Shown piece after piece: positions 14,188 through 34,245 of a stretch of 64,000 nucleotides of DNA (within the stretch, counting starts at the first letter, position 1; each line of letters opens with the position of its first letter). The translations under genes were made by a program, and so were the position numbers. This DNA is from an uncultured Salinisphaerales bacterium. Its GTDB lineage: Bacteria > Pseudomonadota > Gammaproteobacteria > Nevskiales > CAJXLF01. The stretch lies in assembly GCA_913055805.1 (NCBI GenBank), contig CAJXLF010000003.1, forward strand, positions 62,001-126,000, read 5' to 3'. The notes under the pieces were generated by a model. It did not search any database, had not been told where the DNA came from, and saw nothing but the letters and a program-made list of their open reading frames with translations.

Positions 14188-14202
14188 TGAGAATCATTCT
14201 CA
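14188..14202. promoter_or_regulatory. Fur box upstream of ferredoxin-NADP reductase
   Basis: TGAGAAT-C-ATTCTCA is a perfect 7-1-7 palindrome, the central part of the Fur consensus, followed by TTTA. It lies 64 nt before the reductase ATG in an AT-rich gap, implying iron-dependent repression. Confidence 0.85.
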
Positions 14203-14266
14203 TTTAGAAACTAATCCACTACAGTGCTGCCTCACATTCACCGATTGCATTGATTGCGAGGTACAC

Positions 14267-15091: not shown

Positions 15092-15199
15092 TACGCATGT
15101 AGTAAGCACCTGTTCCGAAGATTAAGCGTCATTCTCGTTTGCAACATGATGCAGCACTGAAGAACCCGCAACGGCGAAAAATATCTGCTGCAACAGAAA

Positions 15200-16093
15200 T
15201 CAGAGTCCTGATACCAAGCCGGAACTGAAAGTCTTGTTGTCACGCAAGTTCAAGGCGTCGAGGGCGTTCTCATACAACAATTTTGACAACACCCCCTCCG
15301 CCCACGGTAGTTTTTTGAAGTTTTCCACAAAGTCCTTGATAGGAGTCAATGGATATGCGGAACCAAACAGAAATTTGTTGGCAAACCCTTCCAGGTTTTT
15401 GTTTACCGCACGAAGCCAGTCCTCGTGCCCCATGTGCCAAAGATAGCCCTCGGGACTTAGCCAGATGTTATCGCGGCGCATTGCTATAGCTATTGCCTCA
15501 CGGACATAGGGGTAGCATCCATGAGCACAGATAATTCGCAGGTGCGGAAAATGTTCACTAATCCTTTCGATATGATTCGGGTGTGCATAGGTTAAATACT
15601 GCCCCCCCTTTAACCCGGACGTCTGGATGATGACCGTTGCGTCCAGGTCCTGCAGTAATGCATACACATCAAATAGCGAGTCATCCGATGGCGCACAGCC
15701 TGGCGCACGACCCGGCTCAATACCAAAAACGCAAATATCAAGCTGTTTAAAGCATCGCTCGATCTCTTCAAGACTGTTGTGAAAAGTATTGCTCACATCA
15801 ATACCACCACAGGCAACAAACTTTCCCGCGTTACGGCGCTGGATATCTGCCAACTCATCGTTGGATGTGGTGCGATCAGGAAAAGTGTACTTGGCGAGTT
15901 TCGCTCCGGGATTGCATCCAGATGCCGATACAGCCGTGGTGATACCCGCTGCTTCGATTTCATGAAAAAAACTGGCCTCGGTACCCTCCTTCAACGATTC
16001 AATCAATTCCAACCGACCACTCTTCCGCAACTGGTTTCTGTAGTAGTCAGCTGACTCTCCACCCGTGAAACGGCAACGCACGTCAATAATCAT
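15200..16093 (-). CDS. Amidohydrolase-2-like protein with lost metal ligands
   Basis: 297 residues with the TIM-barrel layout of the amidohydrolase-2 (ACMSD/gamma-resorcylate-decarboxylase-like) family: MIIDVRCRF start, GIEPGRAPG, LDATVIIQTSGLKGGQYLTYAHP, FPHLRIICAHGCYPYVREAI and FLFGSAYPL. The normal HxH is RCR here, the usual H in the IHT-type strand is Q, and the D of FGSD is A; only the AHG histidine remains. It is therefore probably not a metal hydrolase and may be a pseudoenzyme or use a different chemistry. It lies 42 nt downstream of the ATP-grasp gene in a more A/T-rich cassette. Confidence 0.8.
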   Translation of the reverse strand: MIIDVRCRFTGGESADYYRNQLRKSGRLELIESLKEGTEASFFHEIEAAGITTAVSASGCNPGAKLAKYTFPDRTTSNDELADIQRRNAGKFVACGGIDVSNTFHNSLEEIERCFKQLDICVFGIEPGRAPGCAPSDDSLFDVYALLQDLDATVIIQTSGLKGGQYLTYAHPNHIERISEHFPHLRIICAHGCYPYVREAIAIAMRRDNIWLSPEGYLWHMGHEDWLRAVNKNLEGFANKFLFGSAYPLTPIKDFVENFKKLPWAEGVLSKLLYENALDALNLRDNKTFSSGLVSGL

Positions 16094-16135
16094 TTAATAG
16101 CTCATGCACTCAAATGGAGACGAATTCAGCGCCTG

Positions 16136-17254
16136 TCAGGGCGTATTTGCAGATACCCAGCGGCCATTTGGCCGCAACACTTCGACCAGCTTCGACTGAA
16201 TAGAGCAGCTCTCCGGCAAACGGGCGACAGCAGTGCATGCTTCGACACCGGGAACAACATCCGGCAGCTGGTGGAGAGCATGCCAGCGAACGGCAAGTCC
16301 AACTTCGTCGTAACCCAGAAGATAGCGGGCTGAAGTCGCACCGGTAAATCGACCATTTAACTCAAAAATTTTCAGCTCACCATCGCGGGAACGCTGACAT
16401 TGGAGATTCAGCGGACCGCGCCATCCCAGCTCGGCAAATACCCCGGCGCTGGAACGCCCTAATTCAATCACCTCTGCGTCAGTTTCAATGTGAACAGACT
16501 CGCTCTTTCCAGCTCGCATGGTGTTCCTGGTCGCGAAGACACCGCAGACACCGCCATCCGGAGCAATGTACGCCTGAATGGAAGTCTTGATACCTTCAAA
16601 ACTGTGAAAGAGCGGCACGCCACCGGCCTCGATTTCAGCCAGGTATCGCTCTATCTCGCCTGCATCACCCAAAAACGGCTGAGCAACCAGATCGGTTGCA
16701 CCGCCAATTCGCTCCAGTTGGGATCTACGGGTTGCAATGGAAACCCGCCGCGAGGCAAATTCGGTAGCAGGCTTAAGGAGCAGCGGGAAACCATGCTCTG
16801 CAATAAACCTGTCCACGGAGTCTGTCGGCTCACTCAAGCGAATCGTCGCTACAAAGGGCAATCCACGCTGCTGGCAAAAAACAGCAGAAGCGTGCTTACA
16901 GAGCATGACTTCTGCGAGCTCCCGGCTTCCACATAGGGCAACCTCAGCCCAGCGTGGGTCTTGAGCGGCTTTATTCGCAAGCCAAAGCACGTCATCGTCG
17001 CGGCATGGAATCACAAGATCAGGCATGGTTCTATCAAAGATATCGTTCATCCGCTGATCGAATATCAACTCACCGTCGGCTGTTTCGGGTACGAGATAAA
17101 CCTCATCGTAGTCAAACAGACCCGGCGCATCCGCGACACTACTGGTAGCCACAAGTTGTAGCGCATCTCGCCTTTCACGCAAGGTGGCCAAAACGTTCAG
17201 GCCAACGCCGCTGGCTCCTGATAGCAACAAGATAACAATACGGGACCCTGACAT
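16136..17254 (-). CDS. ATP-grasp ligase-like protein
   Basis: 372 residues. An N-terminal Rossmann-type pre-ATP-grasp part (IVILLLSGASGVGLNVLATL) is followed by the ATP-binding region with FPLLLKPATEFASRRV and DLVAQPFLG and the metal/phosphate motif IFELNGRFTGATS near residue 300. This resembles the CarB/PylC-like group, which joins a carboxylate or amine to an acyl-phosphate. GAGAGGATAA precedes the ATG. Genes on both sides suggest glycan or small-molecule biosynthesis; substrates are unknown. Confidence 0.85.
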   Translation of the reverse strand: MSGSRIVILLLSGASGVGLNVLATLRERRDALQLVATSSVADAPGLFDYDEVYLVPETADGELIFDQRMNDIFDRTMPDLVIPCRDDDVLWLANKAAQDPRWAEVALCGSRELAEVMLCKHASAVFCQQRGLPFVATIRLSEPTDSVDRFIAEHGFPLLLKPATEFASRRVSIATRRSQLERIGGATDLVAQPFLGDAGEIERYLAEIEAGGVPLFHSFEGIKTSIQAYIAPDGGVCGVFATRNTMRAGKSESVHIETDAEVIELGRSSAGVFAELGWRGPLNLQCQRSRDGELKIFELNGRFTGATSARYLLGYDEVGLAVRWHALHQLPDVVPGVEACTAVARLPESCSIQSKLVEVLRPNGRWVSANTP

Positions 17255-17365
17255 TTATCCTCTCGAAAGACCCTGATCTATATGTACTTTATAATCCGAC
17301 AACCATAAAGCTTCGCGCGAAGCTGCAGACGCTACCAGCATTTCCCAATCGATTCATCTCAAAAA

Positions 17366-18283
17366 ATGACCGACAGACCTTCATTTGTCATCTATACGCA
17401 ACGTTATGAGGAAAAGAGTGGAGGCTCCCTCCTGCTGCACCACCTCTGTCACTATTTAAACGAATGTGGTTACCCTGCTTATCTCTGGAAGTGGGACAAG
17501 AAGCTGCGCAAAAAAACCCGAAGGAATTGGCTATCGACGATGACGTATCACGTGGAGCGCCTCAAACACCGTCTTTCAATGCCTGGCGATAAACCTTCCA
17601 GGCGCGCTTTCACCTCTCCCCTGCTCAATACGCCCGTCGCCAGCTATCAGGATTTGGCCAAATCGATTGTGATATATCCGGAGGTTATTTCCGGAAACCC
17701 GCTTTACGCCAAGCGCGTTGTACGCTGGTTCCTGAATCGACCCGGCTTCTTTACCGGGCATGTCGAATATGGCGATGATGAGCTGCACTTTCATTTCCGG
17801 GATCAGTTTCGCAGCCCCGACCATCCATCAACCGAATTCCGCTTTTTCGTATCGCTCAAGTGTTTTCAAAAGACCAATTTCGGCAAGCGTAGTGGCACTT
17901 GCTTTATATTGCGCAAAGGTAAAAACAGAACAATCGAGCACGATCTCACTAATGGCATCATCATCGACGAACTTCCAAATAATGAAATAGCGGAAGTGTT
18001 CAACCAGTGCGAGTATTGTATTTCCTACGATTTACACAGCGCCTATTCCTCCTACGCGGCGCTATGCGGGTGCAAATCCATTGTCGTTCCCGACCCGCAG
18101 TTGACTATTGAAGCGTGGCGAAAAGCGGAAGATAGTCGCTGGGGCGTCGCCTACGGCGAAGACGACCTCGACCGGGCCCAGGAAACACTTCCACTATTGA
18201 TCGAGCGAATAAAAAATGACAACGAAAACGTGCTGGCCACAGTTGACCAGTTTGCAAAGTCCATCATTGAACACTTTCACTAG
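17366..18283 (+). CDS. WavQ-like putative glycan-biosynthesis protein
   Basis: 305 residues, soluble. It opens PSFVIYTQRYEEKSGGSLLLHHLCHYLN, has IVIYPEVISGNPLYAKRVVRWFLNRPGFF near residue 100, and later CEYCISYDLHSAYSSYAALCGCKSIVVPD. The YPEVISGNP..A..VVRW..N.PGF region recalls WavQ-like proteins of Vibrio lipopolysaccharide core clusters; this is recognition from memory. The general shape is that of a GT-B-like glycosyltransferase lacking clear catalytic motifs. It is divergent from the ATP-grasp gene and is followed by a DegT aminotransferase. Confidence 0.65.
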   Translation: MTDRPSFVIYTQRYEEKSGGSLLLHHLCHYLNECGYPAYLWKWDKKLRKKTRRNWLSTMTYHVERLKHRLSMPGDKPSRRAFTSPLLNTPVASYQDLAKSIVIYPEVISGNPLYAKRVVRWFLNRPGFFTGHVEYGDDELHFHFRDQFRSPDHPSTEFRFFVSLKCFQKTNFGKRSGTCFILRKGKNRTIEHDLTNGIIIDELPNNEIAEVFNQCEYCISYDLHSAYSSYAALCGCKSIVVPDPQLTIEAWRKAEDSRWGVAYGEDDLDRAQETLPLLIERIKNDNENVLATVDQFAKSIIEHFH

Positions 18284-18354
18284 CGTAGCCAACAAAGTGC
18301 GTGGTTGTACTGCATCCCGGATAACGGTTGATCTTGCCACCGGGAAAACCTCAT

Positions 18355-19464
18355 ATGAGCGATGAGCCGATCTATGTGACCCAGCCCTGGCTACCACCCC
18401 TTGAAGAGTTCATGCCATATCTACAGCAAATATGGCATAGCCGAATTTTAACCAACCGAGGGCCGTTTTATCGTCAGTTTGAACAGGCGCTCTGCGATTT
18501 TCTGCAGGTGGAGCATGTCGCATTGTGTGCCAATGGCACGATTGCGCTGAGCACAGCATTGCATGCTGCAGGACTCGAGGGCGAGGTAATTACTTCACCC
18601 TATTCGTTTCCGGCAACAGCGCATGTGTTGGCTAACAGCAATTTGACCCCTGTCTTTGCTGACATTGATCCGATGACTTTTTGCCTGGATGCTGCCACGA
18701 TCGAACCCGCAATCACCCCTCGAACAGCCGCGATCATGCCCGTACATGTTTACGGAAATACCTGTGACACGCGTTCGATAAAAGCAGTCGCGGACAAAGG
18801 CAACTTGAGAGTCATCTACGATGCGGCACATGCCTTCGGTGTGCAGGACGACGCTGGTTCTGTATTGAAGCATGGCGACTTTTCCGCGCTCAGCTTCCAT
18901 GCCACGAAGGTATTTAACACCTTTGAGGGCGGCGCCATTGTTTGCGCCGACAGACAAACCAAGGAGCTCGTAGACAAACTCAACAACTTCGGCATCGCAG
19001 ATGAAACCACCGTAGTCGCCGCGGGACTCAACGGCAAAATGGATGAATTCAAGGCCTCGCTCGGGCTACTCCAGCTGAAGCATTTTGAACAACTCGTGTC
19101 TAGACGAAAAATGATAGATGCGAGCTACCGGGAGCAACTAGGCGACATTCCCGGGATTACACTGATGCAGCGTGATGGTCGGCAGGTTTCGAATTTTTCT
19201 TATTTTCCAATACTCGTCGAACCAGGTTATCCCCTCGATCGGGATTCTTTGTATGAAAAACTAAAATCCCGCGGCATTTTCTCTCGTCGCTATTTTTACC
19301 CCCTTATTTCCAATCTTCCCATGTATCGCAACTTACCCTCCGCGGACCCCGCCAATCTTCCTGTCGCCAACGCGATCAGCAACAAAGTGCTCTGTCTGCC
19401 GATTTATTCGGCACTATCTGACGAGCAGGTGGAAAAAGTGGTTGGCGTATTGAAATGCCATTGA
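18355..19464 (+). CDS. DegT/DnrJ/EryC1/StrS sugar aminotransferase
   Basis: 369 residues of the PLP-dependent sugar aminotransferase family: ALCANGTIALSTALHAAGL, ITSPYSFPATAHVL, VIYDAAHAFGV and the Schiff-base lysine in SFHATKVFNTFEGGA (about residue 185). The FSRRYFYPL segment matches substrate-pocket residues of the family. The enzyme transfers an amino group to a keto-sugar nucleotide. The ATG at 18355 is preferred to a TTG 27 nt upstream. With the WavQ-like gene it suggests an amino-sugar for a surface polysaccharide. Confidence 0.92.
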   Translation: MSDEPIYVTQPWLPPLEEFMPYLQQIWHSRILTNRGPFYRQFEQALCDFLQVEHVALCANGTIALSTALHAAGLEGEVITSPYSFPATAHVLANSNLTPVFADIDPMTFCLDAATIEPAITPRTAAIMPVHVYGNTCDTRSIKAVADKGNLRVIYDAAHAFGVQDDAGSVLKHGDFSALSFHATKVFNTFEGGAIVCADRQTKELVDKLNNFGIADETTVVAAGLNGKMDEFKASLGLLQLKHFEQLVSRRKMIDASYREQLGDIPGITLMQRDGRQVSNFSYFPILVEPGYPLDRDSLYEKLKSRGIFSRRYFYPLISNLPMYRNLPSADPANLPVANAISNKVLCLPIYSALSDEQVEKVVGVLKCH

Positions 19465-19519
19465 TCTTATAGCGCCAAACCCGGGAGTATCGTCTTCTGC
19501 AACTCTCCCGCACTTATAT

Positions 19520-19534
19520 TGAGAATGATTCTCG
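19520..19534. promoter_or_regulatory. Fur box upstream of TonB receptor
   Basis: TGAGAAT-G-ATTCTCG matches the Fur 7-1-7 core with one arm mismatch and is followed by TTTGTAATAAT. It lies 48 nt before the receptor start at 19583. Confidence 0.82.
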
Positions 19535-19582
19535 TTTGTAATAATATTCTCCTTTAAGAAAAATCCATTCGAGAATCCGTCA

Positions 19583-34200: not shown

Positions 34201-34215
34201 TGAGAATCATTCTCA
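34201..34215. promoter_or_regulatory. Fur box between divergent TonB receptors
   Basis: TGAGAAT-C-ATTCTCA is a perfect palindrome, identical to the one at 14188, followed by TTTGAAATAA. It is 31 nt before the plus-strand receptor start and 83 nt from the minus-strand one, so it could repress both. Confidence 0.87.
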
Positions 34216-34245
34216 TTTGAAATAAACTCCGCTGTCAAATTTCAG

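Follow-up and report, generated by a model that had tools for sequence, protein, structure and literature searches.

An amidohydrolase-fold subfamily with a replaced metal site and the pairing of one branch with an ATP-grasp ligase gene

Closest described proteins and the gene in the window

The decarboxylases and hydratases of COG2159, which include LigW, gamma-resorcylate decarboxylase, iso-orotate decarboxylase, ACMSD, and LigJ, are amidohydrolase-fold enzymes that use a metal. The metal-site residues of iso-orotate decarboxylase are His12, His14, His195, and Asp323, and LigW His241 is listed among the residues that hydrogen-bond to the substrate carboxylate (PMC6305744). BB4693 from Bordetella bronchiseptica (3irs and 3k4w) is an uncharacterised TIM-barrel protein, and no paper on BB4693/3IRS and no function were found in the open-licence literature. 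LigI, a 2-pyrone-4,6-dicarboxylate lactonase, and galactaro-lactone isomerase are metal-independent enzymes of the amidohydrolase superfamily; they belong to a different subfamily, COG3618, and are a precedent for metal-free catalysis on this fold.

The window, a stretch of 64,000 nucleotides from an uncultured Salinisphaerales bacterium, carries an amidohydrolase-fold gene at 15200..16093 on the minus strand. The gene is an intact ORF of 297 amino acids and belongs to a subfamily, referred to here as RxR, that features arginine at both beta1 positions in place of the metal site. In Pfam the protein matches Amidohydro_2 (PF04909) over residues 73-282 with 75.1 bits against a cut-off of 26.4, NCBIfam gives no match to it, and it is the single Amidohydro_2 gene found in the window genome. 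AlphaFold2 predicts a full TIM barrel with a pLDDT of 90.5 and a pTM of 0.91.

The best structure match, and the only close one among solved structures, is BB4693 (3irs), whether determined by sequence, Foldseek, or VIA-align. VIA-align superimposes the model on 3irs with a Z of 32.9 over 268 residues and an rmsd of 2.5, and the whole-chain fold is common to both proteins. The two share 31% identity, and BB4693 features DFRLR at beta1, no beta5 His, FGTAYP at beta8, and HG after beta6; however, it belongs to a DFRxRPP branch and not to the DVRCR branch of the window protein. The matches that follow are metal decarboxylases and similar COG2159 proteins with Z of about 20-23. The Foldseek list also contains 4i6k, which is probably a LigI-type entry. 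The COG2159 decarboxylases and hydratases share with the window protein the fold and the beta6 His, which binds carboxylate in those enzymes and corresponds to His191 here, but they retain the metal-site residues and the metal.

The beta1 strand of the window protein reads D4-V-R6-C-R8 (16070..16084, minus strand) instead of DxHxH, and this segment aligns with IVDVHTHTP of the canonical relative L046 and with IIDFRLRPP of BB4693, which places R6 and R8 at the beta1 positions where L046 has DVHTH. At beta5, I156-Q157-T158 (15620..15628, minus strand) stands in place of the metal-ligand His, and at beta8, F243-G-S-A246-Y-P248 (15350..15367, minus strand) stands in place of FGSD(Y/F)P. Alignment with LigW (4inf) pairs Q157 with His188, His191 with His241, and A246 with Asp314, where a tag offset of 22 in 4inf was inferred from the match of the numbering to these three LigW residues. 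As judged from the alignment, all four of the four metal-site residues are replaced (R6, R8, Q157, and A246). The beta6 His191 (15521..15523, minus strand) is retained, and because it aligns with the carboxylate-binding LigW His241 it is a substrate-side residue, which leaves none of the four metal-site residues.

The original prediction described DVRCR for DxHxH, IQT for IHT, and FGSAYP for FGSDYP in an intact frame, and both the direct reading and the LigW alignment agree with this, as do the unbroken ORF and the Amidohydro_2 score. It also called for structure prediction and alignment with active relatives, which give the full barrel with R6, R8, Q157, and A246 at the metal positions. Its single remaining His is present as His191, but the assignment of this residue as a metal ligand does not hold. 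The loss of the metal ligands supports the non-metal function that was proposed for the protein.

The RxR subfamily

A residue table was compiled for 53 homologues, which include 31 RxR rows. In all 31 rows both beta1 positions are Arg, beta5 is Q, M, or T, beta8 is A, S, or C, and His191 is kept. These rows come from the window, Chlorobiota, Bacteroidota, Alpha- and Betaproteobacteria, Campylobacterota, and plasmids. Around the barrel mouth D4, His191, P214, and Y217 are kept in the subfamily, and E126 in nearly all of its members. Since the same residues recur in all 31 clade members, the pattern exceeds what chance would give. Nine relatives from Chloroflexota and Thermomicrobiota retain the metal site, with His at beta5, Asp at beta8, and, where the N-terminus is aligned (L046), DVHTH at beta1. 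In the tree the 31 RxR rows lie on one branch with support of 98/98, and the long-branched sister of this clade, L003, has one Arg and a beta5 His. The sequences thus describe a monophyletic amidohydrolase-fold subfamily whose metal-site residues are replaced, and the erased site is a trait of the whole subfamily, for which a structure has been solved, and not one specific to the window gene. A third type was observed in other genomes of the window's order (L004-L014), with DxWxQHP at beta1 and FG(S/T)N(Y/F/W)P at beta8, in which the standard site is also missing.

A contig scan with a single sequence gave 0 matches and one with a two-sequence alignment gave 23 loci. At E 1e-30 only one of the 295 genomes in the family of the Algoriphagus genome G428 matches, and this is G428 itself. 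In the family of G432 (200 genomes) there are six RxR matches at E 1e-60, of which only that of G432 belongs to the clade linked to an ATP-grasp gene that is discussed below.

The nearest relatives outside the linked clade adjoin genes for aconitase, MmgE/PrpD, enolase-superfamily, PEP mutase/ICL-like, LysR, and TTT solute-binding proteins, a setting of carboxylic-acid catabolism. More distant RxR members (L020, L021, and L023) adjoin ssuD, sfnG, and msuE genes for sulfonate and dimethylsulfone. Four catabolic loci (L017, L035, L036, and L037) each carry two different RxR paralogues, which are in tandem in L035 and L036; such pairs may be consecutive enzymes or form a heteromer. Small anionic substrates are a thread common to the RxR contexts, and this fits the arginine pair in the pocket.

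Selection acts on the amidohydrolase-fold gene. Two Algoriphagus copies differ with a dN of 0.023 and a dS of 0.48, a dN/dS of 0.05, which shows that the gene is under purifying selection. The window copy is 78, 73, and 65% identical in amino acids to those of L024, L030, and L029, respectively, at saturated synonymous sites. Alignment positions that are conserved in 16 or 17 of 17 rows cluster toward the C-terminal ends of the barrel strands (16/48 vs 28/234, odds ratio 3.7, p 7e-4); because the strand-end windows were chosen manually, this result is taken as supporting evidence only. The conservation around the mouth of the barrel and the purifying selection together argue that the protein has a function.

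Pairing with an ATP-grasp gene and transfer of the locus

In the window an ATP-grasp ligase of 372 amino acids, identified by profile and fold matches, is encoded at 16136..17254 on the minus strand, 42 bp upstream of the amidohydrolase-fold gene in an apparent operon. The partner resembles RizA, 2pn1, and PylC. It shares the ATP-grasp fold with RizA, YwfE, PylC, and 2pn1, the last also by profile, at 15-16% identity.

The eight closest amidohydrolase-fold sequences, including that of the window, form one clade nested in RxR with support of 100/99. This small clade of eight members spans unrelated phyla, and the window copy is 65-78% identical to the others. A same-family ATP-grasp gene immediately adjoins the amidohydrolase-fold gene in 8/8 loci, with gene order and strand combined in three different ways. 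L029 shows a 4-bp overlap between the two genes, and in L024 they are separated by a gap of ~140 bp with a second, epimerase-fused ATP-grasp gene on the other side. All eight proteins have DVRCR at beta1, QTS at beta5, and G(S/T)A(Y/F)P at beta8. Homologues in the same cassette with HxH and Asp, the finding that would have spoken for local mutation, were searched for, and 0/8 have HxH or a beta8 Asp.

Three genomes with relatives from outside this clade (G433-G435) give no match to the linked ATP-grasp. The converse pairing fails: L076, L077, L054, and L055 of the ATP-grasp family have no amidohydrolase-fold homologue within roughly 4 kb, and because ATP-grasp relatives occur without this gene the dependence is one-way. 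The ATP-grasp family was found at E 1e-30 in 2/200 genomes of the family of G432. Conservation of the ATP-grasp partner is 36-43%, far below that of the amidohydrolase-fold protein. The ATP-grasp gene of an Algoriphagus MAG (L025, 1384-2355) carries one in-frame TGA, which reflects either a broken gene or an assembly error.

The two genes lie in a low-GC island of four genes with approximate bounds of 15145..19517. The GC3 of these four genes is 0.53-0.58, compared with 0.74-0.84 in the surrounding genes tested, and an RxR member was found at E 1e-48 in 0/84 other genomes of the window's order. In the L028 and L030 loci, which have a GC of 0.66, low GC is confined to the amidohydrolase-fold gene (0.47 and 0.42), and the adjoining ATP-grasp genes are host-like (0.66 and 0.64). 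Between these two loci the ATP-grasp genes have diverged recently (dS 0.26), and synonymous sites are saturated in the amidohydrolase-fold genes. The simplest reading is that the amidohydrolase-fold gene came separately and settled beside the ATP-grasp gene, and this separate arrival argues for a functional link of both genes. L028 and L030 show that the pair can also travel apart, which would be unexpected for a tight complex. The results show that genes of the linked branch are tied to an ATP-grasp gene and move between genomes by horizontal transfer. The GC contrast in L028/L071 and L030/L072 suggests that a single gene was transferred to a position beside an ATP-grasp gene.

Repeats at the island edges (15121-15144 and 19518-19541) were considered as insertion marks and dropped, as they match at 79% and the right copy overlaps a Fur-box-like site. 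There is no tRNA near the island. The Fur-box-like palindrome TGAGAATNATTCTCNTTT has perfect matches at 14188-14205, 19520-19537, and 34201-34218 (plus strand), and with up to two mismatches there are six matches vs 0.01 expected. The first two sites lie upstream of a ferredoxin-NADP-reductase-like gene (14267) and a TonB receptor gene (19583), and the island is therefore located between two probably iron-regulated genes.

The other two island genes are on the plus strand. One (17366..18283) encodes a 305-amino-acid protein that matches no Pfam family at E 0.1, gives only the impression of a glycosyltransferase, and has a 36% identical homologue in the Pseudohoeflea locus. The other (18328..19464) encodes a DegT/DnrJ sugar aminotransferase, whose closest solved relative is 2po3 and whose best NCBIfam match is DesI. 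The window genome also clearly encodes a dTDP-glucose 4,6-dehydratase, which would supply the substrate of a DesI-type enzyme. Glycan-type genes are also found near the linked clade in L024 (GT41, DegT, and the epimerase fused to ATP-grasp), L026 and L027 (GT2, the only such gene near), L028 (WbqC and hexapeptide transferases), L029 (a weak DegT match and the homologue of the 305-amino-acid protein), and L030/L072 (PhyH, GT41, and an O-antigen-ligase-like Wzy_C protein). The set varies by locus, and a direct aminotransferase link is limited to the window, L024, and L029, the last by a weak match.

Proposed function and alternatives

The product of the amidohydrolase-fold gene seems to be a functional, metal-free component of a small cassette, and the gene does not seem to be in decay. 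We propose that the window protein acts on a carboxylate without a metal, as an enzyme or at the least as a binding protein. The Arg pair would hold an anion at the former metal position, and His191 and Tyr217 may perform the acid-base work of a lyase, isomerase, hydratase, or lactonase reaction. The protein would make or modify a hydroxy- or dicarboxylic acid, which the ATP-grasp ligase would then couple to an amine. The most plausible amine is a 4-amino-4,6-dideoxy sugar from the DesI-like aminotransferase, and the resulting N-acylated sugar would be part of a surface or flagellar glycan. A metal-independent enzyme that acts on the carboxylate ligated by the ATP-grasp, probably to a 4-amino sugar, is the likeliest reading, at about even odds in our judgment, with substrate and catalysis inferred.

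The main rival, which we regard as rather unlikely, is a pseudoenzyme that has no catalysis of its own and assists the ATP-grasp ligase by binding to it, activating it, or contributing specificity as a subunit. Such a role would agree with the loss of all four metal-site residues, the constant pairing with the ATP-grasp gene, and the overlapping genes of L029, but the pocket residues are also kept in the relatives from catabolic operons that have no ATP-grasp gene. Additionally, the conserved columns favour the barrel mouth, and it is the ATP-grasp partner that diverges and not the amidohydrolase-fold protein. An ordinary hydrolase or decarboxylase with a rebuilt metal site, built for example from E126, D99, H191, or the Cys of the DVRCR branch, is improbable. 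Although nearly all members conserve E126, D99, and H191 at the ends of strands and metal decarboxylases are among the close structural relatives, the beta1 positions are two arginines in every member and no residue set equivalent to a known family site is left. The suggestion that the gene is a decaying pseudogene with local mutations is already refuted and is given next to no weight: ligand loss alone would look like this, but the same changes are found in all clade relatives, the frames are intact, and the dN/dS is 0.05. The same changes across the 31-member clade and the purifying selection uphold the original prediction of a selected function, and the recurrence in homologues that it proposed as a check was found in every member.

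The proposal of a metal-independent carboxylate enzyme may extend to the subfamily. We tentatively suggest, at somewhat lower confidence than the cassette model itself, that RxR proteins are widespread metal-free carboxylate enzymes with an arginine pair in place of the metal, and that one branch is a mobile accessory of amino-sugar-decorating ATP-grasp ligases. The fold, the subfamily, and one structure are already known; no description of the pairing, the mobile branch, or the subfamily-wide loss of the site was found in the open-licence literature, nor were papers on ATP-grasp with Qui4N or on amidohydrolase and ATP-grasp in polysaccharide clusters. RxR family records are annotated as 'amidohydrolase family protein', a label that implies metal hydrolysis, which the residues do not allow. 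The pairing with ATP-grasp provides a concrete substrate hypothesis. Testing one member would assign a function to a structure that dates from 2009, reveal how the fold of a metal enzyme is remade once the metal is gone, and correct the annotation across Pseudomonadota, Bacteroidota, Chlorobiota, and Campylobacterota.
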